Positions 6,459 to 28,661 of a DNA stretch of 35,488 nucleotides are shown here, piece by piece. The notes under the pieces were generated by a model, which was not told the DNA's origin, did no database searches, and saw only the letters and a program-made list of their open reading frames with translations. A program made the translations under genes and the position numbers. The first letter of the stretch is position 1, and every line of letters begins with the position of its first letter. Where the stretch lies: assembly GCA_014879735.1 (NCBI GenBank), contig JACSRN010000115.1:1-35488 (forward strand). The letters are read 5' to 3'. This DNA is from Paracoccaceae bacterium. Lineage in GTDB: Bacteria; Pseudomonadota; Alphaproteobacteria; Rhodobacterales; Rhodobacteraceae.

Positions 6459-9400
6459 TCAGTCCTCTGCCACTTCGGCCAGGAGCCGGGCGTTGCCACC
6501 CGCCGCCGTGGTGTCGATGCAGGTATGGCGCTCGATCGTGACATGGCCGCGGTCGGGCAGCGTGGCGATCAGCGGCAGGATCGGACCGGGACGGGCAGCC
6601 AGGGCGCGGGCCGCCTCGCGCGCGGTTTCACCCCAGGCGAGGACGCCGGAAAAGCCGGTCAGCCCGCCCAGCGCGGCCGGTGGCAGATCGGGGGCCTCCA
6701 CCGCCCGGCCGCCGAGGGCGCGGATGGCCTGGGCCTGGGCATGTGCCGCCGCCTCGCCGGGACCGAGGCAGAGGACAGGCGCGCGGGGATACCAGGTCAG
6801 CCGGTTCGATTCGCCGGTGGGACCGGGCAGGCTTTCGGTTGCCTCGGCCGGGGCCGGCGGTGCGGCAGCCAGGCGGCGTGCCGCCTCCTGCGCGGTGGTG
6901 GGACGGCCGGGCGTGCCCGTTGCGGGCGCGGGCCGGGCGGTGAACCGGGCCAGGTAGTCCGGTCCGCCGGCCTTGGGCCCGGTGCCCGACAGCCCCTCGC
7001 CGCCGAAAGGCTGGCTGCCGACCACGGCGCCGATCTGGTTGCGGTTCACATAGGTGTTGCCGGCACGGATGCGGCGGACCACGCTTTCGACCCGGTCGTC
7101 GATCCGGCTGTGCAGGCCGAAGGTCAGGCCGTAGCCGGTGGCATTGATCGCATCGACCACATCGTCGATCTCGCCGGCGCGGAAGGTGGCGACATGCAGC
7201 ACGGGGCCGAAGATTTCGCGTTCCAAGGCGCTGATCGAGGGGATGCGAATCACCGCGGGGGCAACGAAATGGCCGGTCGCGGGCACCTTCAGCTCCTTGA
7301 GAAGGCGGCCTTCACGCCGCGCCGTCTCGACATGGCTGCGGATCGTCGATGCGGCCTCGGCATCGATCACCGGGCCGATGTCGGTGGCGAGCGTCCAGGG
7401 ATCGCCCGCCGCGAGTTCGTCCATCGCACCGAACAGCATCTCCAGCATCGGGGCGGCGATGTCTTCCTGCAGATAGAGGCAGCGCAACGCCGAACAGCGC
7501 TGGCCGGCCGACTGGAAGCTGGAGGCGAGAATATCGCGCACCGCCTGTTCCGGCAGCGCAGTGGAATCGACGATCATCGCATTCAGCCCGCCGGTTTCGG
7601 CGATCAGCACCGCCTCGGGCGCCAGATTGTCGGCCATGCTGCGGCGAATGGCCAGGGCGGTTTCGGTCGACCCCGTGAAGGCGATGCCGGCCACCCGCGG
7701 ATCGGCCGACAGCATCGCGCCCACGGTGCCATCGCCGGGCAGAAGCTGCAGCGCGGTCGCCGGCACGCCGGCGCGGTGAAGGAGCGACACCGCAAGGGCG
7801 GCGATCAGCGGCGTCTGCTCGGCCGGTTTGGCCAGCACGGCGTTGCCTGCGGCCAGCGCGGCGGCGATCTGGCCGGTGAAGATCGCCAGCGGGAAGTTCC
7901 ACGGGCTGATACAGGCGAAGATGCCGCGCGGCGGATCGGTCAGCGATGCCGCGCCGGCGGCATAATAGCGCAGGAAATCCGTCGCCTCGCGCAGTTCCGA
8001 CACGGAATCGGCCAGCGTCTTGCCGGCTTCGCGGGCAAGAAGCGCATAGATCGGGCCGACCTCGGCCTCGTAGAGATCGGCCGCACGGTTCAGCACCTCG
8101 GCCCGGGTTGCGGGATCGGCGGCCCAGGGTTCGGCCAGGCGCAGGGCTGTGTCGGCATCGGCGGGGCTGGCGGTCAGCACCAGGCCCACCGGCGCCCCGG
8201 TCGCGGGATTTTGCACCTCGAGCCGCAGCCCGCCGGCCGCGCGGCCGGCAAGCAGCGGTGCCGCCTCGACCAGGACTTCGGCATAGGGCATGCGGGCCGC
8301 ATCAAGCCTGTCGAGATCGGCGGTATCGGTCAGGTCGTAGCCGCGGGAATTGACCCGGCCGGGGAAGAGGGCGGCAGAGGGGAGCACGGCCGGGTTTTCC
8401 ACCGATGCGACGGCCTCCATATAGGTCAGCGGGCAGGCGGCAACCTTTTCCGGTGGCACTTCCTCGTTCACGATCTGGTTCACGAAACTGGAGTTGGCGC
8501 CATTCTCCAGCAGCCGGCGGACCAGATAGGCCAGCAGGTCGCGATGCGCGCCGACCGGGGCATAGATGCGGCAGCGCGTGGACTTTTCCGACAGAACAAG
8601 GTCGTGCAACCGCTCTCCCATGCCGTGCAACCGCTGGAACTCGAACATTTCTGCCGAAACCCCCATGGCCGAGGCCATGTCCAGCACCGCGGCCACCGTA
8701 TGGGCGTTGTGGCCGGCGAACTGCGGATAGATCCGATCCGTCATGCCCAGCAGCTTGCGCGCGCTGGCGATATAGCTGACATCGGTCGCCTGCTTCCTGG
8801 TGAAGACCGGGAAGGAGGCCAGGCCCAGCACCTGCGCGCGCTTGATTTCGGCGTCCCAATAGGCGCCCTTCACCAGCCGCACCATGATCCGCCGGTCCAG
8901 CCGCACGGACAGGGCATAGAGCCAGTCGATCACCGCGCCGCAGCGCCGGCCATAGGCCTGCACCACCACGCCGAATCCGTCCCAGCCGGCAAGCGAGGGA
9001 TCCGCCAGCACCGCCTCGATCACCTCGAGCGACAGGGCCAGCCGGTCGGCCTCTTCGGCATCGATGTTGAAGCCCAGGCCCGCGGCCCGGGCCAGCCCGG
9101 CCAGGGCCCGCACCCGCGGCACCAGTTCCGCCATCACCCGCTCGCGCTTGGCCACTTCATAGCGCGGGTGCAGCGCCGACAGCTTGACCGAGATCCCCGG
9201 ATTCGCCCCGATATCCGACCCTTTCGCCGCCTTGGCGATGGCAGTGATGGCGCGGGAATAGGCCAGGTGATAGCGGCGGGCATCGGCCTCGGTCCGCGCG
9301 GCCTCGCCCAGCATGTCATAGCTGTAGGTATAGCCCTTCGCCTCCAACTCGCGGGCGCGCGCCATCGCGGTGTCGATGGTCTCGCCCAGCACGAACTGGC

Positions 9401-9893
9401 GACCCATCTCCTTCATCGCACGGGAGACAGCCGAGCGGATCACCGGCTCGCCCAGTCGTTTCAACGCCGCGCGCAGATGGCCGGTGACGCCCGGCTCGCG
9501 GTCGTCAAGGACGCGCCCGGTCAGCATCAGCGCCCAGGTCGAGGCGTTGACCAGCGACGACGCCGATTTTCCCAGGTGCCGGCCCCAGTCCGAGGGCGCG
9601 ATCTTGTCCTCGATCAGCGCGTCCATCGTGGCGGCATCGGGCACGCGCAGCAAGGCCTCGGCAAGACACATCAGGGCGATGCCCTCATCGGTGGACAGGC
9701 CGTATTCGGCGAGAAACACCTCCATCAGCCCCGGGCGGGAACTGTCGCGGATGCGGCGGACCAGCGTCGCGGCCTCGGCGACGATGCGGGCGCGCTCCTC
9801 CGGCGCAAGATCGGCCTCGGCGATCAGGGCCGAAACAAGCGGCGCCTCGGGCGCAAGCGACTGGTGGGTGATGATGTCGATGGGGTCGGGCAT
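6459..9893 (-). CDS. putA: bifunctional proline dehydrogenase / L-glutamate-gamma-semialdehyde dehydrogenase
   Basis: PutA oxidises proline to glutamate in two steps, using FAD and then NAD. The 1144-residue protein carries the proline dehydrogenase barrel (roughly 100-480, with GFNIDAEEADR near 274 and RLVKGAYWDAEIK at 339-351) and the aldehyde dehydrogenase domain (roughly 510-1000, with SPWNFPLAIF near 663, catalytic E766 in AETGG and C800 in SAGQRC). About 140 C-terminal residues form the extra domain seen in long PutA forms. There is no N-terminal ribbon-helix-helix domain, so it should not repress its own gene; the divergent Lrp-type putR fills that role, as established in Rhodobacter capsulatus. 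The start at 9893 gives MPDPIDIITH. Confidence 0.96.
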   Translation of the reverse strand: MPDPIDIITHQSLAPEAPLVSALIAEADLAPEERARIVAEAATLVRRIRDSSRPGLMEVFLAEYGLSTDEGIALMCLAEALLRVPDAATMDALIEDKIAPSDWGRHLGKSASSLVNASTWALMLTGRVLDDREPGVTGHLRAALKRLGEPVIRSAVSRAMKEMGRQFVLGETIDTAMARARELEAKGYTYSYDMLGEAARTEADARRYHLAYSRAITAIAKAAKGSDIGANPGISVKLSALHPRYEVAKRERVMAELVPRVRALAGLARAAGLGFNIDAEEADRLALSLEVIEAVLADPSLAGWDGFGVVVQAYGRRCGAVIDWLYALSVRLDRRIMVRLVKGAYWDAEIKRAQVLGLASFPVFTRKQATDVSYIASARKLLGMTDRIYPQFAGHNAHTVAAVLDMASAMGVSAEMFEFQRLHGMGERLHDLVLSEKSTRCRIYAPVGAHRDLLAYLVRRLLENGANSSFVNQIVNEEVPPEKVAACPLTYMEAVASVENPAVLPSAALFPGRVNSRGYDLTDTADLDRLDAARMPYAEVLVEAAPLLAGRAAGGLRLEVQNPATGAPVGLVLTASPADADTALRLAEPWAADPATRAEVLNRAADLYEAEVGPIYALLAREAGKTLADSVSELREATDFLRYYAAGAASLTDPPRGIFACISPWNFPLAIFTGQIAAALAAGNAVLAKPAEQTPLIAALAVSLLHRAGVPATALQLLPGDGTVGAMLSADPRVAGIAFTGSTETALAIRRSMADNLAPEAVLIAETGGLNAMIVDSTALPEQAVRDILASSFQSAGQRCSALRCLYLQEDIAAPMLEMLFGAMDELAAGDPWTLATDIGPVIDAEAASTIRSHVETARREGRLLKELKVPATGHFVAPAVIRIPSISALEREIFGPVLHVATFRAGEIDDVVDAINATGYGLTFGLHSRIDDRVESVVRRIRAGNTYVNRNQIGAVVGSQPFGGEGLSGTGPKAGGPDYLARFTARPAPATGTPGRPTTAQEAARRLAAAPPAPAEATESLPGPTGESNRLTWYPRAPVLCLGPGEAAAHAQAQAIRALGGRAVEAPDLPPAALGGLTGFSGVLAWGETAREAARALAARPGPILPLIATLPDRGHVTIERHTCIDTTAAGGNARLLAEVAED

Positions 9894-10007: not shown

Positions 10008-10469
10008 ATGGCGGATGGACCGGAGGCTCTGGACCGTTTCGATCAGGCGATCCTGCGGATTCTCGCAGCCGAGGGGCGGATCGCCGTCGTCGACCTGGCC
10101 CGCCGGGTCGGACTGTCGAAAAGCCCGGTGCAGGCGCGGATGAAACGGCTGGAAGAATCAGGCGTGATTGCCGGCTACCGCGCCGTGCTCGATCCGGTGA
10201 AAACCGGGCAGGCGCAGGTCGCCTTTGTCGAGGTCCGGCTGTCGGACACCCGCGAGGCGGCGCTGCAGGCCTTCAACCGGGCGGTGCTGGCCGTGCCGGA
10301 AATCGAGGAATGCCACATGATTGCCAGCCGCTTCGATTATCTTCTGAAGGTGCGGACGGCCGATATTGCCGATTACCGCCGCGTTCTGGGCGAACGCATC
10401 AGCGCGCTGCCGCATGTGGCACAGACCTCGACCTATGTCGCGATGGAGGCGGTCAAGGAGGGCGGCTGA
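10008..10469 (+). CDS. putR: Lrp/AsnC-family regulator of proline use
   Basis: The 153-residue protein has an N-terminal helix-turn-helix (about residues 8-58: LDRFDQAILRILAAEGRI, then VGLSKSPVQARMKRLEESGVIAGYRA) and a C-terminal RAM ligand-binding/oligomerisation domain (about 65-145). Lrp-type PutR proteins activate putA in response to proline. It is transcribed away from putA across a 114-base gap with symmetrical sites. The ATG at 10008 follows a near-perfect AGGAGG 5 bases upstream. This frame is open far further upstream, but that part is only antisense to putA. Confidence 0.93.
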   Translation: MADGPEALDRFDQAILRILAAEGRIAVVDLARRVGLSKSPVQARMKRLEESGVIAGYRAVLDPVKTGQAQVAFVEVRLSDTREAALQAFNRAVLAVPEIEECHMIASRFDYLLKVRTADIADYRRVLGERISALPHVAQTSTYVAMEAVKEGG

Positions 10470-15649: not shown

Positions 15650-16602
15650 TGCGGCTTCTGATCACCCGCCGCCTGCCCGATGCAGCCCTCGCCGCCGCAG
15701 ATGCGCGTTTCGACGTCACGCTGCGCGACCGGACCGACCCACTGTCCCCCGATGAGCTGCGCCGCGCGCTGACCGATTTCGATCTGGTTCTGCCCACGCT
15801 GGGCGACCGCTTCTCGGCCGCGGTCTTTGCCGATGTCCCGGCGCCCCGGGCGCGGCTGCTGGCCAATTTCGGCGTGGGGATCAACCATATCGACGTTGCG
15901 GCGGCCCGGGCCGCCGGCGTTGCGGTGACGAATACCCCCGGCGCCGTGACCGAGGCCACCGCCGACATCGCCCTCACCCTGATCCTTATGACCGCGCGCC
16001 GCGCGGGCGAAGGCGAACGGATGCTGCGCGCCGGCGGCTGGACCGGCTGGCATCCGACCCAGTTGCTGGGGCTGCATCTGGGCGGCAAGACCGTCGGCAT
16101 CATCGGCATGGGCCGGATCGGCAAGGCCATTGCGCGGCGCTGCGTCCTGGGCCTGGGGATGGCGGCGGTGTTCTTCAACCGCTCGCCCGTGGCCGATGAC
16201 CCCGGCGTTCCCGCCCGGCAGGTGGCGCTGGCCGAGGCGCTGGCCGCCGATGTGGTGGTTCTGGCCGTCCCGGCAACACCCGAAACGCGGCATCTGATCG
16301 ACGCCGCCGCGCTGGCGCGAATGAAACCGGAGGCGATCCTCGTGAACATCGCGCGGGGCGATATCGTCGACGAGGCGGCGCTGGTCGCCGCGCTGTCCGA
16401 AGGCAGGATCGCCGGCGCCGGCCTTGACGTCTACGAGGAGGAGCCCAAGGTCAACCCGGCCCTTCTGACGATGCAGAACGTCACGCTGCTGCCGCATCTT
16501 GGCACGGCGGCGCTGGAGGTGCGCACGGCAATGGGGCTGATGGCGGTTGGAAACCTGGTCGCCTTTGCCGAAGATCGGCCGCTGCCCAATGCGGTGAACT
16601 GA
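15649..16602 (+). CDS. D-2-hydroxyacid dehydrogenase (glyoxylate/hydroxypyruvate reductase type)
   Basis: This is a 317-residue NAD(P)-dependent oxidoreductase of the D-isomer 2-hydroxyacid family. The nucleotide loop GMGRIG is at 153-158, the catalytic arginine is R236 in NIARGD, the glutamate is in DVYEEEP (about 265) and the histidine is H283 in LPHLGTA. FGVGINHIDVAAARAAGVAVTNTPG (74-98) is typical of glyoxylate/hydroxypyruvate reductases (GhrB-like), but formate or glycerate dehydrogenase activity cannot be excluded. It is the last of the tightly packed proC-csaA run (1-bp overlap at 15649) and converges with fadB across a repeat region. Confidence 0.9.
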   Translation: MRLLITRRLPDAALAAADARFDVTLRDRTDPLSPDELRRALTDFDLVLPTLGDRFSAAVFADVPAPRARLLANFGVGINHIDVAAARAAGVAVTNTPGAVTEATADIALTLILMTARRAGEGERMLRAGGWTGWHPTQLLGLHLGGKTVGIIGMGRIGKAIARRCVLGLGMAAVFFNRSPVADDPGVPARQVALAEALAADVVVLAVPATPETRHLIDAAALARMKPEAILVNIARGDIVDEAALVAALSEGRIAGAGLDVYEEEPKVNPALLTMQNVTLLPHLGTAALEVRTAMGLMAVGNLVAFAEDRPLPNAVN

Positions 16603-16670
16603 GGCGTGGTGGACTGCGGCGCGGTGAGCTGAGGCCCGGCGGCCCGCTGGGCCGGCCGGATCCCCGGGTG

Positions 16671-16803
16671 CCTCCCCCCGGGATAAGGGGAAACCATGCG
16701 CGGCAGGGCGCTGCCCCCCGCGCCACCCGGGATCTCTCGGGCCTCCCCCCGGATGAGGGGGAAGCCTTGCGCGGCAGGGCGCTGCCCCGCGCCACCCGGG
16801 TCA
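16671..16803. repeat. two tandem copies of a 71-base GC-rich unit
   Basis: The unit starts CCTCCCCCCGG and carries GCGCGGCAGGGCGCTGCCCC and CGCGCCACCCGGG; the two copies start at 16671 and 16742 and differ at a few positions. Each copy can form two hairpins. The array lies between the convergent hydroxyacid dehydrogenase and fadB genes, where it may end transcription from both sides. It shares its GGGCGCTGCCCC part with the dispersed repeat at 6391. Confidence 0.8.
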
Positions 16804-16832
16804 TGCGGCGGCGCGGGGGGCCAGCGGCCAGA

Positions 16833-19022: not shown

Positions 19023-20005
19023 GTTGCTCCTCCGTGCGGATCTTTGGGCGGATATTCGGTCCCGTCGCGGCGCAGATAGCGGCGGGCGGGGCCGTCGTTG
19101 TGGGTGATCAGGTCGTGGTCGGTGTAGTGGATGACATCCCGGGGGAACCGGGTGCCAAGCGTCAGATAGGTGGCGGGCCGGTCGCTGCGGTTTTCCAGCC
19201 GGTGGCCGATGGGCTGGCCCGCAGGCCAGCAGGCGGCGTCACCGGGGGCCAACAGTGTTTCGGTGTCTTCGATCAATGTCGGCGCGCCGGAGAGAACGAG
19301 GATCATCTCATCCTCGCGCTCATGCCAGTGGCGAAAGGACGAGGTGCCACCGGGCGGCAGGTCTTCCAGATGCAGGCCGAATTGTGTCAGCCCGCCGGGA
19401 TCGCCCAGAACGCAATGCCGATAAGCGCCAAGCGGGCCGAGGATCGGGTGGATGTAGCCGTCCTCCAGCAGCCATTCGCGGGTTGCGGCGGGCTGGATGC
19501 GGCGCGGGGTCAGGTCGGTGTCGCGGGGGCCACCCCAGTCCGGCGCCAGATCCAGCAGTTCCGGCGGCAGGTCGCCGCCGCGCAGGCGCGTGCCGGCGGC
19601 ATCCAGCACCTCCCAAGTGGTGGCATGGTTCACCATGCGGGTGCCGCTGTCGGGATAGTGGCAGATGTCCCCGGCGACCCGGCTGCCGACAATGACATAG
19701 GTTGCGGGCGCGGCGCTGCGGTTTTGCACATGATGGGCATCCGGCTCTCCCCTGCGCCAGATCGCGGCATCGCCGGGGGTCAGGACATGCGCTCCGCAGT
19801 CATCCACCACCGTCGCGGTGCCGGACAGAAGATAAAGCGCCTCGTCCTCGGCCAGATGCCAATGCCGTTCGGATGACCGGGTGCCCGGCGGCAAGGTTTC
19901 TACGTAGCAGCCGAATTGCCTCAGCCCGCCCGCCTCGGACAGATGCAGCGTCGTGATCCCGTCTTCCCGGCGGATCAGCGGCGCATGGGCGGGATGCACG
20001 ATCAT
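19019..20005 (-). CDS. double-cupin protein
   Basis: The 328-residue product has two cupin domains. Each has the metal motif HWHxxEDE (RHWHLAEDEALYLLSG about residue 47; RHWHEREDEMILVLSG about residue 227) and the second motif with a conserved His and Asn-Arg-Ser (AHHVQNRS; GHRLENRS). The final part of each domain ends with a related HYxD stretch (CHYPDS; IHYTDHD). All usual metal ligands (two His, one Glu, one His) are present in both. Its start overlaps the cupin stop and its stop overlaps the fadB start, each by 4 bp. The substrate is unknown; cupins can be dioxygenases, isomerases or binding proteins. Duplication of the adjacent single-cupin gene is likely. Confidence 0.8.
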   Translation of the reverse strand: MIVHPAHAPLIRREDGITTLHLSEAGGLRQFGCYVETLPPGTRSSERHWHLAEDEALYLLSGTATVVDDCGAHVLTPGDAAIWRRGEPDAHHVQNRSAAPATYVIVGSRVAGDICHYPDSGTRMVNHATTWEVLDAAGTRLRGGDLPPELLDLAPDWGGPRDTDLTPRRIQPAATREWLLEDGYIHPILGPLGAYRHCVLGDPGGLTQFGLHLEDLPPGGTSSFRHWHEREDEMILVLSGAPTLIEDTETLLAPGDAACWPAGQPIGHRLENRSDRPATYLTLGTRFPRDVIHYTDHDLITHNDGPARRYLRRDGTEYPPKDPHGGAT

Positions 20006-20478
20006 TCGCGCGGCCCCGCCCAGTCGGTGCCGTCGCGATAGGTGTGACGGACGCGCCCGCCTTCGATATCCAGCCCGAAATCGTGGTCGGAATAGGCCAC
20101 CACCTCATGCGGGGCCTTCGACCCGACGATCAAGAAGCTGGCCGGTTCGGCCGAACGGTTCTCGAAACGGTGGCCGTTCGCCACGCCGGCCTTCCAGGCC
20201 GCGAACTCCCCCGGCGCCATCCAGGTTTCGCCCTCATCCTCGACCAGCACCAGCGCGCCGGACAGGACCACGGCGAACTCGTCCTCGGCCGCATGCCAGT
20301 GGCGCAGCGATGCGACGGCGCCAGGCTCCAGCATCACCAGATTGGCGCCGAACTGGGTCAGCCCCGCCAGATCGCCCAGCCGGCGCGAGGATCGGCCCCT
20401 CATCATCGCGGCATAGGGCTCGGGGTAGGTCGAGCCCGTCCGCAAAGGCGCGGCGAGGGGGTCCAGCTTTGGCATCAC
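20002..20478 (-). CDS. single-cupin protein
   Basis: The 158-residue protein is one cupin domain: HWHAAEDEFAVVLSG around residue 58 holds the first metal ligands, and GHRFENRS around 104 the last. A C-terminal extension ending VVAYSDHDFGLD, then RHTYRDGTDW, is shared with the second domain of the neighbouring double cupin (DVIHYTDHD, RYLRRDGTEY). The ATG at 20478 overlaps the fadA stop by 4 bp and its own stop overlaps the double-cupin start. The position inside a fadA-fadB operon points to a role in acyl-CoA or aromatic/organic acid metabolism, or in sensing a product of it, but this is inference. Confidence 0.8.
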   Translation of the reverse strand: MMPKLDPLAAPLRTGSTYPEPYAAMMRGRSSRRLGDLAGLTQFGANLVMLEPGAVASLRHWHAAEDEFAVVLSGALVLVEDEGETWMAPGEFAAWKAGVANGHRFENRSAEPASFLIVGSKAPHEVVAYSDHDFGLDIEGGRVRHTYRDGTDWAGPRE

Positions 20479-21686
20479 ACCCTCTCGATGATGGTGGCGG
20501 CGCCCATGCCGCTGGCGATGCAGAGCGTGGCAAGCCCGGTGCCCTTGCCGCTGCGCTCCAACTCGTCCAGCAGCGTGCCGATGATGATGGCGCCGGTGGC
20601 GCCCAGCGGATGGCCCATGGCAATGGAACCGCCGTTGACATTGACCAGCGCGGGATCGACGTCAAAGGCCTGCATGAAGCGCAGCACGACCGAGGCGAAG
20701 GCCTCGTTGACCTCGAAGAGGTCGATGTCGCGGATCGACATGCCGCTGTCCTTGAGGATCTTCTCGGTCACGGGGACCGGGCCGGTCAGCATGATCGTCG
20801 GATCGGTGCCGATCTTCGCCGTGGCACGGATGCGCGCGCGCGGCTTCAGCCCGTTGGCCTTGCCGAATTCGGCGTTGCCGATCAGCACCGCCGCAGCCCC
20901 GTCGACGATGCCCGAAGAGTTGCCGGCATGGTGGATGTGGTTGATCCGCTCGAGATGGGGATATTTCATCAGCGCCACCTTGTCGAAACCGGGCATCACC
21001 TCGCCCATGTCCCTGAAACTGGCCTTCAGCCCGCCCAGCGCCGCCAGATCGGTGCCCGGGCGCATGTATTCGTCGCGGTCGAGGATGGTCAGCCCATTGC
21101 GATCCCGCACCGGCACGATGGAGCGGGCGAACCTGTCATCCGCCCAGGCCTCGGCCGCGCGGCGCTGGGATTCCACCGCCAGGGCATCGGCCATCTCGCG
21201 GGTGAACCCGTATTCGGTGGCAATGATGTCGGCAGAAATCCCCTGCGGCACGAAATAGGTCTTCATCGCAAGCGTCGGGTCGACGGCGATCGCGGCACCG
21301 TCGCTGCCCATCGCCACGCGGCCCATCATCTCGACGCCGCCGGCGATATAGGCCTGGCCTGCGCCGCCCTTCACCTGGTTTGCCGCCAGGTTCACCGCCT
21401 CCATGCCGGAGGCGCAGAAGCGGTTGATGGCAAGGCCCGGGATGCGTTCGTCCAGATCCGACAGCAGGACGGCCGAGCGGGCAAGACAGCCGCCCTGCTC
21501 GCCCACCTGGGTGACATTGCCCCAGATCACATCCTCGACCGCATGGCCCGACAGGCCGTTGCGGTCCTTGACGGCATTCAATACCCCGGCCGACAGCGCG
21601 ACGGAGGTGACTTCATGCAGCGCGCCATCGGCGCGGCCCTTGCCGCGCGGGGTGCGGACGGCGTCGTAGATATAGGCTTCGGTCAT
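20475..21686 (-). CDS. fadA: acetyl-CoA C-acyltransferase (thiolase), FadA type
   Basis: This thiolase performs the last step of beta-oxidation, releasing acetyl-CoA. In the 403 residues the nucleophile C91 lies in NRFCASGMEAVN, the histidine H359 in GGSIAMGHPLGATGA, and the second cysteine C389 in LCIASGMGAA; NEAF is at about 327-330. At C389 the more usual CIGGGMG is CIASGMG. The ATG at 21686 has GAGGAG 5 bases upstream. The gene lies 10 bases from the glutathione transferase stop and overlaps the cupin start by 4 bp. An acetoacetyl-CoA thiolase role in PHB metabolism is possible, but the fadB partner argues for degradation. Confidence 0.92.
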   Translation of the reverse strand: MTEAYIYDAVRTPRGKGRADGALHEVTSVALSAGVLNAVKDRNGLSGHAVEDVIWGNVTQVGEQGGCLARSAVLLSDLDERIPGLAINRFCASGMEAVNLAANQVKGGAGQAYIAGGVEMMGRVAMGSDGAAIAVDPTLAMKTYFVPQGISADIIATEYGFTREMADALAVESQRRAAEAWADDRFARSIVPVRDRNGLTILDRDEYMRPGTDLAALGGLKASFRDMGEVMPGFDKVALMKYPHLERINHIHHAGNSSGIVDGAAAVLIGNAEFGKANGLKPRARIRATAKIGTDPTIMLTGPVPVTEKILKDSGMSIRDIDLFEVNEAFASVVLRFMQAFDVDPALVNVNGGSIAMGHPLGATGAIIIGTLLDELERSGKGTGLATLCIASGMGAATIIERV

Positions 21687-21696
21687 CGGTTTCTCC

Positions 21697-22338
21697 TCAG
21701 GCGGCGGCAGGCGGGAAAGCCCGCTGCATCAGGTCATAGGGATGCTTCCAGCCCGGAAGGGCGGAAAGGCGGGAAAGCCAGGTGTCGATATGGGGCCAGT
21801 CGGCGCGGGTGAAGCCGAAGGGTTCGGGGTAATAGAGATAGGAACAGCAGGAGAGATCGGCCACCGTCGCCCCCGTGCCGCCCGCCACCCAGTCGCGGGT
21901 GGCCAGATGGTCGTTCAGCACCGTGCAGGCCGCCCTGAAGCGGCCCTGCAGCCAGGGAATCACGCCCTCAGGGCGCTTGTCTGCCGGCAGGAAGTTCATC
22001 AGGAAGCGGCAGGTTCCGCCCTGGGCGGAAAACTTGTGGTTGTCCCACAGGATCCAGCGCAGGACCTCCCGCCGCTCGGCGGGGCTCGCCCCCCCGAGTT
22101 GCCCGGTCGCATCGGCGATATGGAGCAGGATGCTGCCCGACTGGCTGAGCGTTTCGTCCCCATCGACCAGAACCGGCACCTCGCCCATCTCGTTCAGCGC
22201 GCGGAATGCTGGCGTGCGGGTGGCACCCCGGAAATAGTCGACAAAGACCGGCTGCCAGGGCGTGCCGGTCAGTTCCAGCGCCAGCGCACATTTATAGGCA
22301 TTGCCGCTTTCGCCGAAGCCGTGGAGCTGGATCGTCAT
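21697..22338 (-). CDS. glutathione S-transferase family protein
   Basis: The 213-residue protein has a thioredoxin-like N-terminal domain (MTIQLHGFGESGNAYKCALALELTG, with the conserved cis-proline region EVPVLVDGDETLSQSGSIL) and a helical C-terminal domain from about residue 85. The ESGNAYKCALAL stretch places serine or cysteine near the usual catalytic site; glutathione conjugation or a reductive role is expected but the subclass is unclear. The ATG at 22338 follows GGGAGG. It is followed by fadA after 10 bases, which suggests detoxification of reactive acyl-CoA products in the same operon. A dispersed repeat copy lies just upstream. Confidence 0.85.
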   Translation of the reverse strand: MTIQLHGFGESGNAYKCALALELTGTPWQPVFVDYFRGATRTPAFRALNEMGEVPVLVDGDETLSQSGSILLHIADATGQLGGASPAERREVLRWILWDNHKFSAQGGTCRFLMNFLPADKRPEGVIPWLQGRFRAACTVLNDHLATRDWVAGGTGATVADLSCCSYLYYPEPFGFTRADWPHIDTWLSRLSALPGWKHPYDLMQRAFPPAAA

Positions 22339-22369
22339 GTTGCGGTTCCTCCCTCGATCACCGTCGCTG

Positions 22370-22421
22370 GCGGGGGTTTCACACCCCCGCACCCCCGTGG
22401 GGTATTTTCGTCAAGAGGAAG
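22370..22421 (+). repeat. dispersed GC-rich repeat, copy 2
   Basis: A perfect 8-bp stem GCGGGGGT (22370-22377) and ACCCCCGC (22383-22390) is followed by a GC-rich run and the core GGTATTTTCGTCAAGAGGAAG (22401-22421). It lies 32 bases upstream of the glutathione transferase gene, between it and the RHH-like gene, with copy 3 in reverse nearby. Confidence 0.75.
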
Positions 22422-22563
22422 AGGATTTGTTAACCCTGATCCCTCAGTCTCTGAATCGCGGTACAGGCTGGGGAGCCGATGACCGCTCAAGGGGAAGCCC
22501 CGCTTCGGTGAGATGCATAGCCAAGGCAGTAAGGGTCCGGGGCGGGGCCGACTGGATTGCCGG

Positions 22564-22600
22564 CTTCCTCTTGATCTAAATACCCCCCCGCCGGAGGCGC
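22564..22600 (-). repeat. dispersed GC-rich repeat, copy 3 (inverted)
   Basis: Read on the minus strand, CGCCTCCGGCG and a G-run are followed by the core GGTATTTAGATCAAGAGGAAG (22564-22584). Together with copy 2 it forms a pair in opposite directions flanking about 140 bases. It lies about 20 bases after the stop of the small RHH-like gene. Confidence 0.75.
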
Positions 22601-22622
22601 CCGCAGCCCATCCTCGCATCCC

Positions 22623-22835
22623 TCAGGATTTTCGTGCCTCCAGTTCCAGATTGAAAAGCCGCAGGCGATGCATCAGGTTTTCCCGGTCGGTCACGCTGTC
22701 GAAATTCTCGAACAGGAACGACAGCGCCTCGCCCTCGTCCAGCCCGGCCTCGGCGGCAAAGCGTTTCAGGCGGCGATAGCCGTCTTCGGTCATTGCGACG
22801 GGGAAGCGGCGGGTCAGGCGGAAACGTCTCGGCAT
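22623..22835 (-). CDS. small ribbon-helix-helix-like protein (70 aa)
   Basis: A 70-residue protein starting MPRRFRLTRRFPVAMTEDGYRRLKRFAAEAGLDEGEALSF with a second helix (SFLFENFDSVTDRENLMHRLRLFNLELEARKS). The strand-helix-helix order and the basic N-terminus recall CopG/Arc-type DNA-binding or antitoxin proteins, but the match is by shape only. The ATG at 22835 has GGAGGAG upstream and is preceded by a strong hairpin at 22857-22889. It lies downstream of the acyl-CoA dehydrogenase gene, with 60 bases between. Possible jobs include regulating fatty-acid genes or acting on the enzyme's expression; nothing in the sequence proves this. Confidence 0.6.
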   Translation of the reverse strand: MPRRFRLTRRFPVAMTEDGYRRLKRFAAEAGLDEGEALSFLFENFDSVTDRENLMHRLRLFNLELEARKS

Positions 22836-22856
22836 TGGCTCCTCCGGCTGCGGCGG

Positions 22857-22889
22857 GGTGCAAATTCCTTTCTTCCGGGAATTTGCACC
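22857..22889 (-). promoter_or_regulatory. perfect 12-bp palindrome between acyl-CoA dehydrogenase and RHH-like gene
   Basis: GGTGCAAATTCC (22857-22868) and GGAATTTGCACC (22878-22889) pair perfectly around a 9-base loop. It starts 6 bases past the dehydrogenase stop and ends just before the GGAGGAG ribosome-binding site of the small gene. No T-run follows, so it may be an operator, or an RNA hairpin that processes or attenuates the downstream message. Confidence 0.7.
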
Positions 22890-22895
22890 GCAAGC

Positions 22896-24668
22896 TTAGA
22901 ACGCCTCGGCGGCAAGGGCCATCACCGGATCCGCCCCGCTTTCGATCCGCGCCAGATGCATCCCGCAGGCCGGGAGCTGGCGGGCCATGTAGTAGCGGCC
23001 GGTGGCGATCTTGGTCTCGTAGAACGCGCTGTCCTCCGTGCCCGCATCCAGTGCCGCATGGGCGGCGGCGGCCATCCGCGTCCACATCAGGCCCAGGCAG
23101 ACATGACCCATCAGGTGCAGGAAATCGGTCGAGCCGGCAAGCGCCGCATCGGGGTTCTTCATGCCGTTCTGCATGAAGAACATGCCGGCCGCCTGCATCT
23201 GTTTCGACGCCGCCTTCAGCGGATCGGTGAACGCCTTCATCCGGTCGTCGCCATCATGCGCCTTCGTTTCGGCCTTCACCATGTCGAAGAAGGCCATCAC
23301 ATGCTTGCCACCATCGGTTGCGAGCTTGCGACCGACCAGATCCAGCGCCTGCACGCCGTTCGCGCCTTCGTAGATCATCGCGATCCGGGCATCGCGGACG
23401 AACTGCGACATGCCCTGTTCCTCGATATAGCCGTGGCCGCCGTAGATCTGCTGGGCCTGCACCGCCGAGTCGAACCCCTTGTCGGTCTGGAAACCCTTGA
23501 TCACCGGGGTCAGGAGGCCGATCAGCCCGTCGGCCGCGGCATCGCCGTGATGGGCCCGGTCGATCAGGCTGGCGCCCCAGAAGGTCAGCGCGCGGGCGCC
23601 CTCGACAAAACTCTTCTGATCCATCAGCGCCCGGCGGATGTCGGGATGAACGATCAGCGGGTCGGCGGCGCCGGTCGGGTTCTTCACCCCTGTCACGGCC
23701 CGGCCCTGCAGGCGATCCCGGGCATAGGCTGCCGCATTCTGGTAGGCCGCCTCGGCCACCGCATAGCCCTGCAGGCCCACGCCCAGCCGTGCCTCGTTCA
23801 TCATGGTGAACATGGCCCGCATGCCCTTGTGCAGGTCGCCGAGCAGCCAGCCCTTCGCGCCATCATAGTCCAGCACGCAGGTGGCATTGCCGTGAATGCC
23901 CATCTTCTCTTCGATCTTGCCGACCGTCACCGCGTTGCGCGCGCCCAGCGAGCCGTCTTCGTTCACAAGGACCTTCGGCACGATGAAGAGCGAGATGCCC
24001 TTCGTTCCCTCGCCGCCGCCGGGCGCCTTGGCCAGGACCAGGTGAATGATGTTCTCGGCCAGGTCATGATCGCCGGCCGAGATGAAGATCTTCTGGCCGG
24101 TGATCAGGTAGCTGCCGTCGTCCTGCGGTTCCGCCCTGGTCCGCAGCAGGCCGAGGTCGGTTCCGCAATGCGGCTCGGTCAGGTTCATGGTGCCGGTCCA
24201 GTCGCAAGACACCATTTTCGGCAGGTATTTCGCCTTCTGCTCCGGGCTGCCATGGGCATGGATCGCCGAATAGGCGCCATGGGTCAGTCCCTGATACATG
24301 TTGAAGGCCATGTTGGCCGAGACGAAGACCTCGCCCACGGCGGAACTCATCAGATAGGGCAGACCCTGGCCGCCATATTCCGGGTCGCAGTCGAGCGCGG
24401 TCCAGCCGCCCTCCTTCATCGCCCGGAATGCCGCATCAAAGCCCGTGGGCGTGCGCACCACGCCGTTTTCCAGCGTGCAGCCCTCGCGGTCGCCGACGGC
24501 GTTCAGCGGGGCCAGCACCTCGGTGGCGACCTTGCCGGCCTCCTCCAGCACGGCGGCGGTGAAGCCGCGGTCCAGATCGGCATATCCCGGTATGTCCGCG
24601 GCCGAGACGGCCAGCACGTCATGCAGCAGGAACTGCATGTCCTTCACGGGGGCGGTATAGGTGGTCAT
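22896..24668 (-). CDS. acyl-CoA dehydrogenase, long FadE/DmdC-like form
   Basis: This FAD enzyme introduces the alpha-beta double bond in acyl-CoA. The 590 residues carry the N-terminal helical domain, [13 protein letters not shown] (161-173, FAD-binding), the middle beta domain, the C-terminal helical domain with [11 protein letters not shown] (409-419) and the likely catalytic base E434 in IYEGANG, then an extra C-terminal domain to residue 590. The long form matches the group that includes 3-methylmercaptopropionyl-CoA dehydrogenase (DmdC), so straight-chain or methylthio substrates are both possible. The ATG at 24668 has AGGGAGG; an upstream in-frame start is not conserved. It follows a MerR gene by 19 bases. 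Confidence 0.9.
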
Positions 24669-24687
24669 GTCTTCCTCCCTTGGTCGG

Positions 24688-25113
24688 TCAGGCCGGTTTT
24701 CCGGGCGTCCGGGCGGCGCGAACCGCATCCATCAGCTGGGCACCGGCATCGAGTTCGGTCTTCAGTTCTGCAATCGCGAGATCGAGTTCGGCCCGCTGCG
24801 CCTCCATGGCGGCCAGCCGCCCGCGGGCGAGGTTATAGGTCCGCTGCATCTGCGCAAGGTTCGACCCCTCGCGGTCATAAAGGTTCAGCACCTGCCGGAT
24901 ATCCTCGAGACTGAAACCGAACCGCTTGCCGCGCAGGATCAGCTTCAGCCGGCCGCGGTCGGTCCGGGTGTAGAGCCGCTTTGCGCCACGGCGGATCGGG
25001 CGAAGCAGTTCCTTCGCCTCGTAGAACCGCAGGGTCCGGGGCGTGACGTCGAAGGCATCGCACATCTCGCGGATCGTCATCAGGTCGTCCTGGCTGGTCG
25101 GGGTCGGGGTCAT
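24688..25113 (-). CDS. MerR-family regulator of the acyl-CoA dehydrogenase operon
   Basis: The 141-residue protein has an N-terminal winged helix (about residues 12-80: [65 protein letters not shown]) and a coiled-coil dimerisation helix (about 95-130). There is no conserved metal-binding cysteine, so it is likely to sense an organic ligand, as LiuR-type MerR regulators of branched-chain and fatty acyl-CoA genes do. A palindromic operator lies about 70 bases upstream. The ATG at 25113 lacks a good ribosome-binding site; an ATG at 25080 (MTIREM) is an alternative. Confidence 0.85.
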
Positions 25114-25181
25114 GGCACGGTCACATCAGCAATCCCATCCCTATCCGAAATGGGGCGTCGATCCGCAGACTAGTAGAGCAG

Positions 25182-25207
25182 TTGACGTTCACGTAAGCGT
25201 AACGTCA
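25182..25207 (-). promoter_or_regulatory. MerR-type operator candidate
   Basis: TGACGTT (25183-25189) and AACGTCA (25201-25207) form a perfect 7-bp inverted repeat with an 11-base spacer; TTGACGT-TC-ACGTAAG at 25182-25197 is a second, closer imperfect repeat of the TnACGT type seen in LiuR-like operators. It lies about 70 bases upstream of the MerR gene start, where autoregulation would be expected. Confidence 0.5.
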
Positions 25208-25421
25208 CGTCACGGTCAGGCGCGACGCGGGGTCAGACCATGCACATGATATCCGCCCCCTGGCCGCGCCTTCCGACCCATGAAAAACCCGCCAATATCG
25301 GCCCCGCGGCAGAGCCGGCGCAGCACCTGCCGGCACCGGAATCCCGCCCCCTGCGGCACCGGACGCGGCCTGTCCGTGACACGGAAGGATTCGGGGACAT
25401 GCCGGCATTCCGGGACAAGCC

Positions 25422-25456
25422 GCAGGTCTGGGCGCAGGTCTGGGCGCAGGTCTGGC
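25422..25456 (+). repeat. 12-base tandem repeat, about 2.9 copies
   Basis: The unit GCAGGTCTGGGC occurs at 25422-25433 and 25434-25445, and the last copy, GCAGGTCTGGC at 25446-25456, is incomplete. It is in non-coding DNA next to the second MerR gene stop. Confidence 0.85.
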
Positions 25457-25472
25457 CGCGACCGGCGGCGCT

Positions 25473-25853
25473 CTAATCCAGCTTCCGCAACTCCGACACC
25501 GCCGTTTCCCGCAACGCGCGCAGGTCGGCGATCGTGGTGTCGAGCTCGGCCCGCTGACCTTCCAGCTCCTGAAGCTGGCGGTCGGCCAGACCGAGCCAGG
25601 TTTCCAGCTGCGGGCGCTCGCCCTTTTTGCCGTAGATCAGCAGCCACTGGCGAATCTCCTCCAGCGAGAAGCCGAAACGGCGGCCGCGCAGGATCAGCTT
25701 CATCCGCGCCACCTCGCGCGGGCCATAGAAGCGGGTACGGCCTTCCCTTTCGGGGGCGAGAAGCTCGATATACTCGTAATAGCGCAGGGTTCGCGGCGTA
25801 ACCTCGAACCTTGTGCACATATCCTTGAAACTCAGGCGAACGGAATCCGGCAT
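25473..25853 (-). CDS. second MerR-family regulator, paralog of the first
   Basis: A 126-residue MerR protein starting [71 protein letters not shown]. The DNA-binding half is clearly related to the MerR protein at 24688 (shared VTPRTLR[FY]YE and KLILRG[RK]RFGFSLE[ED]IRQ), while the C-terminal coiled coil differs. The ATG at 25853 has GGGGAG 9 bases upstream; a GTG at 25862 is possible. It is divergent from two thioesterase genes across about 110 bases, so it may control them. Confidence 0.83.
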
Positions 25854-25961
25854 GCTGGGCACTCCCCGACAGGCATCGTAGGGCCAAGCCGTGTCTCATG
25901 GCAACGGCATCGACGCACGGGCACCCTTGCGCCCGGCCCGGGCTGCGGCTTTGATGCGGCC

Positions 25962-26456
25962 ATGACCGGAACCCTGCCCCCACCCCCCTCTTCCCCGATA
26001 TCTTCCCCTCCGGCCGACGGACGCCTGACGGCTGCGCGCCAGTTCATCGCGGCACTGCCCCAGGCCCGTGCGCTGGGGCTGACGCTGGAGGAGATCGGGC
26101 CGGGAATAGCCGTGATCGTCATGCCCTACGACCCCAGACTGATCGGCGATCCGCGCACTGGCGTGATCCACGGCGGGGCGGTCTCGACCCTGATGGACAC
26201 CGCCTCGGGGACGGCGGTGCTCTGCCACCCGTCAGGGCCAGCGGGCACCGCGACCCTTGACCTGCGGATCGACTACATGCGGCCGGCGGCGCCGGGCCAG
26301 ACGATCCGCGCCCGGGCCGAGTGCCACCATGTCACCCGCAGCGTGGCTTTCGTGCGCGTCACCGCCACCGATGACGACGAGGCCCGTCCCGTGGCCATCG
26401 GCACCGGCGCCTTCACCGTCGAGCGCAGCCCGGCAGCCGGAAAGGCGGCGCGCTGA
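25962..26456 (+). CDS. PaaI-type hot-dog thioesterase 1
   Basis: Hot-dog thioesterases hydrolyse acyl- or aryl-CoA. The 164-residue protein has a Pro/Ser-rich N-terminus (about 20 residues, weakly conserved) and then a single hot-dog domain with [17 protein letters not shown] (about 67-83), the usual helix motif with the conserved HGG and Asp, followed by [17 protein letters not shown]. The ATG at 25962 has no clear ribosome-binding site. Its stop overlaps the next gene's start by 1 base (TGATG). It is the first of a pair that faces a MerR gene, and both fit acyl-CoA turnover in the neighbouring beta-oxidation block. Confidence 0.86.
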
Positions 26457-26899
26457 TGGAAGATCCGCGGGCGCAGATTCTGAACCGGCTGGCCTCCGGC
26501 ATCCCCTATCTCGGCTTTCTCGGCATCCGCGTCGACACCCGGGGCGATGAATTGACCGGCGTCCTGCCGTTTCGCCCCGAACTGATCGGCAATCCGGTGA
26601 TCCCGGCGCTGCATGGCGGGGTTACGGCGGCCTTTCTCGAGGTGACGGCGATCCTGGGGCTGGTCTGGACCGCGCTTGACAGGCAGGGGACGGAACTGCC
26701 CGAGGTGCTGCCCAAGACCATCGACCTGACTGTCGACTATCTGCGCGCGGGCCAGCCGCGCGACAGCTTTGCCCGGGCGCGCATCAACCGGCAGGGCCGG
26801 CGCTATGCCAGTGTCCAGGTCGAGGCCTGGCAGGACGACCCCGCCCGGCTTTTCGCGCAATGCACCGGCCATTTCCTGATGCCCGAACCACGCGGCTGA
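26456..26899 (+). CDS. PaaI-type hot-dog thioesterase 2
   Basis: A 147-residue single hot-dog protein with ALHGGVTAAFLEVTAILG (about 58-75) in place of the usual HGGx..D motif: the acidic residue here is glutamate, as in some PaaI relatives. PKTIDLTVDYLRAGQPRDSFARARINRQGRRYASVQVEAW is the usual central strand run. It is coupled to thioesterase 1 by a 1-base overlap and may form a mixed dimer or tetramer with it. The gene ends about 40 bases from the 3' end of the tRNA gene on the opposite strand. Confidence 0.85.
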   Translation: MEDPRAQILNRLASGIPYLGFLGIRVDTRGDELTGVLPFRPELIGNPVIPALHGGVTAAFLEVTAILGLVWTALDRQGTELPEVLPKTIDLTVDYLRAGQPRDSFARARINRQGRRYASVQVEAWQDDPARLFAQCTGHFLMPEPRG

Positions 26900-26940
26900 T
26901 GCGTCGCCGCCCGGCGTGGCGCGCTTCGGGACCGGCGCCA

Positions 26941-27017
26941 TGGTAGGCCCACTGGGACTCGAACCCAGACTGTGTGGAGTTTAAGTCCACTCTCTCTACC
27001 GATTGGAGTATGGGCCC
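26941..27017 (-). tRNA. tRNA-Leu(UAA)-like gene with a class I variable loop
   Basis: The minus strand folds as a complete cloverleaf of 77 bases including an encoded CCA. The acceptor GGGCCCA pairs with TGGGCCT (one G-T end pair), the discriminator base is A. The D-arm has a 3-bp stem (CTC/GAG) and loop CAATCGGTAGA, like leucine tRNAs. The anticodon stem GTGGA/TCCAC carries loop CTTAAAC, so the anticodon is UAA. The variable loop is only ACAGT (5 bases), and the T-arm is CTGGG TTCGAGT CCCAG. Leucine tRNAs normally have a long variable arm; this one does not. A well-spaced promoter precedes it. Its decoding role is inferred from the anticodon. Confidence 0.85.
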
Positions 27018-27026
27018 GAACCTTCG

Positions 27027-27055
27027 TCTTTATCAGCCCGGCTGCGCGCGTTCAA
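27027..27055 (-). promoter_or_regulatory. tRNA promoter
   Basis: On the minus strand TTGAAC (27050-27055) and TAAAGA (27027-27032) are separated by exactly 17 bases, and the tRNA starts 9 bases further on. The spacing and both hexamers suit a housekeeping sigma factor. Confidence 0.6.
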
Positions 27056-27251
27056 TCTGGCGTCGAGACCGCTGCCGGATTGGGGATTTGCACAAGCTAC
27101 TGAATAAAATCACTTCATCTTGGTGGAAAACCGCAGGTTCGATGGCAGGTCCCTGCCGGTTCCGCGCCCGTGCCGCAACCACCGCGCCATCCGTCCGCTT
27201 CCCGGCCCCGTGCGCTGCGGGTTCGGATTTCCGCCGCGCCGCAGCATCCGA

Positions 27252-27280
27252 TTGACAACCATCGGCCCGGACGCCTTTAT
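27252..27280 (+). promoter_or_regulatory. scoAB promoter
   Basis: A perfect TTGACA (27252-27257) is followed after 17 bases by CTTTAT (27275-27280), a weaker -10 element, about 32 bases before the scoA start. Confidence 0.5.
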
Positions 27281-27312
27281 GGCGGAAACAGGGATATCCG
27301 GAGGGGCGCCGA

Positions 27313-28017
27313 ATGAAGAAGGTCTACCCCAGCGCGGTTGCGGCGCTGGATGGGGTTTTGCAGGACGGCATACTGATCGCTGCGGGCGGCTTTGGCCTCT
27401 GCGGCATCCCCGAACTTCTGATCGACGCCATCGTCGACAGTGGGGTGAAGGATCTGACCGTTGCCTCGAACAATGCCGGGGTCGACAATTTCGGCCTGGG
27501 CAAACTGCTGGCCACGCGCCAGATCCGCAAGATGATCTCGTCCTATGTGGGCGAGAACGCCGAGTTCATGCGCCAGTATCTCTCGGGCGAGCTGGAACTG
27601 GAATTCAACCCGCAGGGCACGCTGGCCGAACGGATGCGCGCAGGCGGCGCCGGGATCCCCGGTTTCTACACCGCGACCGGCGTCGGCACGGTCATCGCCG
27701 AGGGCAAGGAACACCACGACTTCGACGGCAAGACCTATATCCTCGAGCGCGGAATCGTGGCCGATTTGTCGATCGTCAAGGCTTGGAAGGCCGATCCCTC
27801 GGGCAACCTCGTCTTTCGCAAGACGGCGCGCAACTTCAACGTACCGGCGGCCACCTGCGGCCGCATCTGCGTGGCCGAGGTCGAGGAGATCGTGCCGCTG
27901 GGCGCGCTGGATCCCGACACGATCCATCTGCCGGGCATCTACGTCCACCGCCTGATTGCCGGCCCTCATGAAAAGCGCATCGAGCAGCGCACCGTCCGCA
28001 AGAAGGAGTCCGCCTGA
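27313..28017 (+). CDS. scoA: 3-oxoacid CoA-transferase subunit A
   Basis: This family I CoA transferase subunit moves CoA between succinyl-CoA (or acetyl-CoA) and acetoacetate, linking ketone bodies to acetyl-CoA. The 234 residues have [13 protein letters not shown] near 26-38 (the CoA-transferase signature) and the [15 protein letters not shown] region near 111-125 of the A subunit. The start (ATG 27313) follows GGAGGGG. Its stop overlaps the scoB ATG by 1 base (TGATG). AtoD-like acetate CoA-transferase is an alternative name for the same fold; the SCOT type seems better supported by length. Confidence 0.9.
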
Positions 28018-28661
28018 TGCCCGCAGAAGCCAAAGGCTGGGACCGCAACCAGATTGCCGCCCGGGCGGCGCAGGAACTGCAGGACGGCTGGTATGTGAAC
28101 CTGGGAATCGGCATCCCGACCCTGGTGGCGAACTACATCCCCGAAGGCGTCTCGGTGACGCTGCAGTCGGAAAACGGCATGCTGGGCATGGGTCCCTTTC
28201 CCTATGAGGGCGAAGAGGATGCCGACCTGATCAACGCCGGCAAGCAGACCATCACCGAATTGCCGCAGACCGCCTATTTCGATAGCGCGACCTCTTTCGC
28301 GATGATCCGTGGCGGCAAGATCGCCATGGCGATCCTGGGCGCCATGGAGGTTTCGGAAGACGGCGATCTTGCAAACTGGATGGTGCCGGGCAAGCTGGTG
28401 AAGGGCATGGGCGGCGCCATGGATCTGGTGGCCGGCGTCGGCCGCGTGGTGGTGGTGATGGATCACGCCAACAAGGCCGGCGAATCGAAGGTGCTGAAGG
28501 CCTGCACCCTGCCGCTGACCGGCAAGGCCGTGGTCAACCGCATCATTACCAATCTTGGCGTGCTGGACGTGGTGCCGGGCGGGCTGAAGATCGTCGAACT
28601 GGCCGATGGCGTCAGCGAGGCGGATCTGCGCGCAGCAACCGAGGCGACCCTCGTCGACTGA
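28017..28661 (+). CDS. scoB: 3-oxoacid CoA-transferase subunit B
   Basis: The 214-residue partner carries the catalytic glutamate E52 in SENGMLGMGP, the second family I signature; NLGIGIPTLVANYIPEG is at 28-44. It forms the active transferase with subunit A. A good AAGGAG precedes the overlapping start. A short stem GAGGT/ACCTC follows the stop. The promoter and position near a beta-oxidation block suggest use of acetoacetate from fatty acid or leucine breakdown. Confidence 0.92.
   Translation: MPAEAKGWDRNQIAARAAQELQDGWYVNLGIGIPTLVANYIPEGVSVTLQSENGMLGMGPFPYEGEEDADLINAGKQTITELPQTAYFDSATSFAMIRGGKIAMAILGAMEVSEDGDLANWMVPGKLVKGMGGAMDLVAGVGRVVVVMDHANKAGESKVLKACTLPLTGKAVVNRIITNLGVLDVVPGGLKIVELADGVSEADLRAATEATLVD

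Follow-up and report, generated by a model that had tools for sequence, protein, structure and literature searches.

Could a leucine tRNA without the long variable arm serve as the resident UUA decoder of a bacterium? According to a review, cellular leucine tRNAs outside animal mitochondria are all long-armed (PMC9976931). The question is raised by a tRNA gene of a Paracoccaceae bacterium, which is located on contig JACSRN010000115.1 of assembly GCA_014879735.1. Positions 1 to 35,488 of this contig are the whole stretch of DNA that was analysed and are called the window, and the genome to which it belongs, an assembly of 4.39 Mb in 201 contigs, is labelled G000. Here, we explore the structure of this gene, its relatives in bacteria and viruses, and the chromosomal locus that it occupies.

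The tRNA gene and its structure

The sole tRNA called in the window by ARAGORN is a tRNA-Leu(taa) at 26941-27017 on the reverse strand, which is also matched by Rfam RF00005 with 56.8 bits (E 7.2e-10) and is present in one copy in G000 according to blastn. Its features, with the evidence for each in brackets, are as follows.

26941..27017, reverse strand: class I tRNA-Leu(UAA) gene with encoded CCA (ARAGORN, Rfam RF00005, single copy by blastn)
26969..26973, reverse strand: variable loop ACAGT of 5 nt, replacing the long arm (sequence)
26981..26983, reverse strand: anticodon UAA within the loop CTTAAAC (ARAGORN, sequence parse)
26992..27008, reverse strand: leucine-type D-arm with the 3-bp stem CTC/GAG and the loop CAATCGGTAGA (sequence parse, covariation)
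27018..27157, no strand assigned: 5' flank of the tRNA, presumed promoter region (local alignments to congeners)

The variable arm of a class II tRNA has 10 nt or more, and the window tRNA, with the 5 nt ACAGT, falls outside that class. The acceptor stem is GGGCCCA/TGGGCCT with a G1.U72 pair, followed by A73 and the encoded CCA, and the T-arm is CTGGG/CCCAG. The D-loop is 11 nt long; C13 A14 A15, G18 G19 and A20a are present, as is GGTAGA. Every stem pairs in the sequence parse, and the minimum-energy fold of the unmodified transcript is not the cloverleaf. The cloverleaf, UAA anticodon, leucine D-arm, A73, CCA and 5-base loop described in the first-pass annotation are thus confirmed by ARAGORN, RF00005 and the sequence. 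The same annotation had claimed a promoter at an exact 17-base spacing, which fared less well: TTGAAC and TAAAGA can be read 17 bases apart, but a consensus scan of 26800-27320, whose rules may not suit this organism, gave no sigma-70-like promoter and no terminator.

Covariation of the short form

With blastn, the window tRNA matches three of 198 family genomes, that is, G000 itself, G065 and G126. The match in G126 is confined to 26 bases, while that in G065, a member of another genus, covers 74 of the 77 bases with 86% identity, and the differences between the G065 and window copies include paired (compensatory) changes in the anticodon and T stems. For the covariation analysis, 30 class I relatives were hand-picked from 46 sequences of the same length. 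In this set, 98.7% of the cells of the cloverleaf are paired (shuffled mean 66.7), and double-sided changes occur at 18 of the 20 cloverleaf pairs; neither value is reached by any of 500 shuffles, and in the controls with a slid register the pairing is 48.7% at most. Less extreme is the count of further pair types: 46 were seen, the shuffles average 41.6, and 30 of the 500 reach the observed count. For the 3-bp D-stem, 98.9% of the cells are paired, two of the three pairs show double-sided changes and the remaining pair is invariant. The short-armed tRNA-Leu(UAA) is a genuine, conserved kind of tRNA and not a one-off.

Relatives in bacteria and viruses

A covariance model built from two copies (G000 and G065) was run over 295 family genomes. 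Class I Leu(UAA) genes proved rare in the family, having been found in at least three of these genomes, G000 (106.7 bits), G065 (106.4 bits) and G054 (76 bits), and this count is a lower bound, since among the matches from 57.5 bits down only L156-L181 were typed, as Arg, Met, class II Leu(UAA) and one class I Leu(CAA). The 63.7-bit match of G004 was rejected as a member, as the gene is a Leu(CAG) of class I with a UCA tRNA next to it. At that locus (L155, 1366-1442 and 1501-1577 of G004:C400), the class I tRNA with the UCA anticodon is separated from the class I Leu(CAG) by 58 bases, and it might read UGA. In addition, a small tRNA array was observed at L171 (G271:C13), where Trp, Thr, Pro, a short-loop Leu(CAA) and Ser follow a layout that reads as phage-like.

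Model R3, which covers both forms of Leu(UAA), matches 250 of the 295 family genomes at E 3e-13 or better. Among the R3 matches listed, which do not include that of G054, a span of 74 nt occurs in G000 and G065 only, and the others span 81 to 84 nt. The remaining 45 genomes have no R3 match at E 3e-13; they may be devoid of the tRNA, or they may have a form that these searches overlook. Within the family, a second class II Leu(UAA) type was also seen (L161, L167, L172 and L173), which has a CTG/CAG D-stem and a GGCC-type acceptor and is unlike the GTG/CAC type seen in L145 and in the congeners.

When the class I model was run over 385 alphaproteobacterial genomes at E 1e-14, 11 matched. They comprise G000, G537, which was rejected as a carrier because its match is a tRNA-Lys, and nine genomes with a class I Leu(UAA). 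Four of these (G484, G388, G578 and G363), which span three families, have a MoCF_biosynth domain gene directly upstream of the class I tRNA and in the same orientation, which suggests that the class I gene is resident there. The class I Leu(UAA) of G363 also has a phage integrase gene 135 bases away from its 3' end, suggesting that integrating elements target such genes. G396 has a row of three class I leucine tRNAs (GAG, CAG and UAA; L402/L414, contig C43), and since terminase and portal genes are found about 4 and 7 kb away from this trio, the G396 copy is probably phage-borne.

The form is widespread in viruses. A short-form Leu(UAA) pattern matches at least 120 IMG/VR contigs, and a narrower pattern gave no match in the viral search. 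In the 120 viral loci listed, ARAGORN types the matched gene as tRNA-Leu(taa), with lengths of 73 to 79 nt, some of these calls including extra end bases. Of these 120 viral stretches, 30 contain at least five tRNAs and 23 contain just one. The variable loop is 5 nt long in the 12 bacterial and 120 listed viral copies that were parsed, but the pattern fixes the spacing, and hence the 5-nt loop, and the parser also required 5 nt. Among named phages, a short-loop Leu(UAA) is found in the T5-like Salmonella phage 5, Synechococcus S-CREM1 and Vibrio phiTY18. For example, the depositors of tRNAL2 from Salmonella phage 5 (AJ604531) note that a version of it with the anticodon CUA suppresses amber codons effectively. 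The possibility that the window tRNA is a lone oddity was rejected, as the form occurs in at least 120 viral contigs and in other Alphaproteobacteria.

The tRNA core sets most copies of the short form apart. All 12 bacterial class I copies have A9, C12, C13 and G23, and among the 120 listed viral class I copies A9 is found in 114, C12 with G23 in 114 and C13 in 120. These constancies, at positions 9, 12 and 13 as well as at 15 and 73, are not made by the viral search pattern, since the positions lie outside it. Among 34 class II Leu(UAA) genes from the family, G9 is present in 33, G12 in 33 and C23 in 34, and position 13 is G in 29 and A in five. The window tRNA, with A9, C12-G23 and C13, is outside this class II pattern of G9, G12-C23 and G13 or A13, and bears the complete phage-type signature, namely a 5-nt loop ending in AGU, A9, C12-G23, C13 and A73. 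Consequently, a plain deletion of the arm that kept the class II core was rejected, the core differing at 9, 12-23 and 13.

Over 68 aligned positions, the closest relative of the window gene among the listed viral copies and the bacterial ones is the viral L299 (identity 0.88), and the second closest is G065 (0.87); the best class II gene reaches 0.75. L299 encodes a phage RNA polymerase, a primase-helicase and a DNA polymerase. The mean identity of the window gene is 0.70 to the listed viral class I copies and 0.65 to class II genes, and for the G054 copy the best class II value is 0.85 and the best listed viral value 0.91. In a FastTree tree of 145 tips and 68 columns, L299, G000 and G065 are joined with a local support of 0.994, and the class II genes fail to group together as a single clade: the largest split made up of class II genes alone contains 16 of 31. 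It should be noted that C38 of the window tRNA recurs in the class II genes of four of the five congeners that have a detected Leu(UAA), and in six of the 120 listed viral copies; local descent, or else conversion of that arm, would be in keeping with this.

The tRNA locus across the genus

Thirteen genomes of the genus were sampled, and a class II Leu(UAA) was detected in five congeners (G198, G203, G204, G205 and G207). In all five, the class II gene is divergent from CoA-transferase genes and located upstream of them, and those same CoA-transferase genes flank the window tRNA at 27313-28661. The neighbouring features of the window are as follows.

27313..28017, forward strand: CoA-transferase subunit A, syntenic anchor in five congeners (Pfam CoA_trans, synteny)
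28017..28661, forward strand: CoA-transferase subunit B, syntenic anchor (Pfam CoA_trans, synteny)
27158..27312, forward strand: region preceding the CoA-transferase genes, with homology to the stretch that separates subunit A from the class II tRNA in the congeners
26456..26899, forward strand: 4HBT thioesterase, first gene 3' of the tRNA (Pfam 4HBT)
10011..10469, forward strand: Lrp/AsnC regulator, displaced by about 16 kb from the tRNA (Pfam AsnC_trans_reg)
6459..9893, reverse strand: PutA, proline dehydrogenase plus aldehyde dehydrogenase, adjoining Lrp (Pfam Pro_dh, Aldedh)

In a tree of the two CoA-transferase proteins, G000 groups with G204 (0.937) within the class II clade (0.956), which also contains G111, from another genus, and has weak internal support. 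The intergenic homology starts at 27158 with G205, at 27184 with G204 and at 27166 with G198, near the expected start of the old tRNA, and 27018..27157 is outside the local alignments to three of four congeners; the alignment to G203, which is longer and weaker, reaches into this stretch, and 4 of 200 shuffles are as good. Since the homology of the 5' flank stops near the 5' end of the old tRNA, the flank and the tRNA seem to have changed together. A class II remnant beside the new gene was also considered and rejected: at the G000 locus, four congener tRNAs score below the shuffle mean, with 364 to 390 of 400 shuffles scoring as well.

The left flank differs from that of the congeners, as the 4HBT thioesterase has no match in the loci fetched from the five class II congeners. 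In G205, G203 and G198, Lrp and then PutA lie 3' of the tRNA, about 0.3 to 4.5 kb off, whereas in G000 the tRNA and Lrp-PutA are separated by about 16 kb of other genes (10500-26940). The G204 contig ends 4.4 kb on, and no Lrp-PutA is found among its listed matches. In the other seven congeners (G199, G200, G201, G202, G206, G208 and G209), searches with R3 and blastn revealed neither form of Leu(UAA), and the fetched sequence surrounding their CoA-transferase genes gave no tRNA call. Among these seven, G209 is an assembly of 7 contigs that is 100% complete, and in G202 the CoA-transferase genes are flanked by thiolase, acyl-CoA dehydrogenase and thioesterase genes. Judged by synteny, the resident Leu(UAA) locus of the genus appears to hold the short form in the window species.

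The G065 copy and the search for a class II gene

In G065, the class I gene has a META-domain gene, Lrp and PutA on its 5' side. Lrp and/or PutA are found within about 1.5 kb of the tRNA at 11 of 29 class II Leu(UAA) loci, and in 10 of those 11 Lrp sits 5' of the tRNA, as in G065. In G304 (L377), a META-like gene also lies between, but it is inverted, shows 35% identity over 77 residues and is more than 1 kb from the tRNA. The arrangement suggests that the G065 gene fits within the common Leu(UAA) neighbourhood of the family, and its locus is likely to be strictly one-to-one orthologous with the class II loci.

Is there, then, a normal Leu(UAA) elsewhere in these genomes? In G065, which is 100% complete, four class II leucine tRNAs were found (UAG, CAG, GAG and CAA) and no class II Leu(UAA), although the same model finds those four and, as a positive control, retrieves the class II Leu(UAA) of G003. 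In G000, three class II leucine tRNAs were found (CAG, GAG and UAG) and no class II Leu(UAA); this absence is weaker evidence and no proof, since the assembly is in 201 contigs and Leu(CAA) was not found either. These absences rest on models R2 and R3 and blastn, because the genome search with RF00005 misses known tRNAs; for instance, no Tyr is among the matches it typed in G000, G209 and G065. The check for a normal isoacceptor that the first-pass annotation had proposed was thus carried out in both genomes, and none came to light.

Charging and decoding

According to the review, E. coli LeuRS depends on A73, A15-U48, G18G19, A20a and the contacts between the D and T loops, and variants without the long arm and the anticodon arm remain active (PMC9976931). 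All 12 bacterial class I copies, including that of the window, have A73, A15-U48, G18G19, A20a and the T-loop bases U54, U55, C56 and A58. As all the E. coli LeuRS elements are present and the long arm is dispensable in E. coli, charging of the window tRNA with leucine by the host LeuRS is expected. The best reading of the sequence is that the gene would be an ordinary leucine decoder of UUA, and of UUG by wobble. UUA is rare: across the ORFs called in the window, some of which may be false, it makes up 3 of the 1011 leucine codons. Of the two readings offered by the first-pass annotation, that of a LeuRS which tolerates a class I tRNA as reader of the rare UUA codon gains indirect support from these LeuRS elements and the dispensable arm. 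The other, a special or regulatory tRNA, finds no support, because the gene stands at the Leu(UAA) locus of the congeners and its kind shows compensatory conservation. Both the kinship with phage tRNAs and the replacement at a resident locus had been overlooked by that annotation.

Origin of the short form

How did the short form come to occupy this locus? We consider it probable that a phage-type gene replaced the resident Leu(UAA) in place, and that it works as a leucine decoder of UUA and UUG charged by LeuRS. In this view, the phage-type tRNA gene would have come in together with its 5' flank and, through recombination or integration at the locus, would have displaced the resident class II gene; the short form would be charged by the host LeuRS because bacterial LeuRS recognises A73 and the D/T-loop corner rather than the long arm. 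What is seen at the locus is that the class II gene was not found, the phage-type gene is present and no lysogen is visible. A Pfam scan of 24 window proteins (23 of the 35 called ORFs, plus Lrp) revealed no integrase or phage family, no tyrosine integrase is among the scanned neighbours of the tRNA, and a duplicated tRNA 3' end was rejected, as no repeat of it was found in the window. The route of import is therefore inferred. We also infer the direction of transfer, the mechanism of replacement, the charging by LeuRS and the expression of the gene, and the direction from phage to host is unproven, because several alphaproteobacterial genomes carry the form as a seemingly resident gene. On a wider view, a separate, phage-borne lineage of class I leucine tRNAs may have repeatedly replaced the class II UUA reader at its own locus, so that some bacteria have the short form only, a generalisation for which the balance tips slightly towards yes.

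The same locus could have been reached with no import, if the class II gene lost its arm and the core then shifted to stabilise the class I fold (G9 to A9, G12-C23 to C12-G23 and G13 to C13), the likeness to phages being due to convergence or to phage capture of host genes. Such an in-place change would agree with a position identical to that of the class II gene in the congeners, with the C38 and leucine D-loop shared with their class II genes, with the lack of any element remnant among those sought and with a tRNA tree in which class II genes are not one clade. However, it would have to produce the full phage-type signature, it leaves a listed viral copy closer to the window gene than any class II gene, it does not account for flank homology with G205, G204 and G198 that ends near the 5' end of the old tRNA, and it has to bring G000 and G065, members of different genera, into one group with a viral copy at 0.994; we regard it as unlikely. 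Import without a phage donor is the other alternative, in which an alphaproteobacterium with an old resident class I gene was the source and phages are one branch or uninvolved. The nine further genomes among the 385, four of them, from three families, with the MoCF_biosynth gene upstream that suggests residence, make such a donor conceivable, but none of the nine is among the twelve nearest relatives of the window gene, where the listed viral L299 comes first, and at least one of them, G396, has its copy near phage terminase and portal genes. Transfer between bacteria therefore seems to us a distinctly unlikely source.

Two further explanations concern the function of the gene rather than its source. 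That the tRNA is special, regulatory or miscoding and receives no leucine is suggested by the unusual class alone, and is made very improbable by the presence of all tested LeuRS elements, the position at the Leu(UAA) locus of the congeners, the lack of another detected UAA decoder in G065 and the phage homologue that works in suppression, as annotated. Decay or silence of the gene would suit the rarity of UUA in the called ORFs of the window, the seven congeners in which Leu(UAA) was undetected and the consensus scan that found no promoter; yet all stems pair, CCA is encoded and the differences from G065 are compensatory, and we give this explanation hardly any weight. Replacement in place by a phage-type gene is the reading that we carry into the comparison below.

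Comparison with known systems

Short-loop leucine tRNAs of phages are already known from sequence databases, and a short-loop Leu(UAG) of mycobacteria is reported in PMC6582537. In the open-licence literature, we found no report of a bacterium whose UUA codons appear to be decoded solely by a short-loop leucine tRNA at the resident locus, and at least two Rhodobacterales genomes (G000 and G065) appear to rely on a short-armed leucine tRNA for UUA. If confirmed, this would be a clear case of a phage-type tRNA assuming the job of the resident isoacceptor at its locus. It would also be a natural test of the features that a bacterial LeuRS needs and of how SerRS avoids leucine tRNAs, as well as a caution for annotation that reads a short arm as mis-isotyping.

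The window tRNA resembles bacterial class II tRNA-Leu(UAA) in the UAA anticodon, A73, the G1.U72 pair of some members, A15-U48, the chromosomal locus and the 3-bp D-stem with A14 A15 and GGUAGA, and differs from it in the 5-nt loop and in A9, C12-G23 and C13 in place of G9, G12-C23 and G13. With the phage class I tRNA-Leu(UAA) it shares the short loop, the leucine D-arm and A73, and the same core is found in 114 of the 120 listed viral copies; unlike the phage genes, it is chromosomal, with no phage gene among the 24 proteins scanned. For example, tRNAL2 of Salmonella phage 5 differs from it in having the loop GTTTT and G13. In Mycobacterium mucogenicum and relatives, the short-loop tRNA-Leu(UAG) is located in a tRNA gene cluster, and it is likewise a short-variable-loop leucine tRNA on a bacterial chromosome (PMC6582537). 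However, the mycobacterial copy is an extra one with the normal isoacceptor present, whereas the window tRNA is at the resident locus and no normal isoacceptor was found.

A known route by which a phage tRNA substitutes for that of the host is tRNA-dependent lysogeny, in which integration costs the host a tRNA gene at the insertion site and a tRNA encoded by the phage compensates for it, as with the tRNA-Leu-CAA of phage Gaia (PMC10865867); at the window locus, no integrase or prophage was found. The search for short-loop leucine tRNAs also turned up a human tRNA-Leu-CAA gene that resembles tRNA-Met. Closer in shape is the animal mitochondrial tRNA-Leu(UUR), which lacks the long arm and, according to the review, is charged through A73 and A14 (PMC9976931); it is armless like the window tRNA, it is organellar, and no homology is claimed. 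The window tRNA, a bacterial chromosomal leucine tRNA with a 5-nt loop, contradicts the long-arm generalisation made in that review (PMC9976931).
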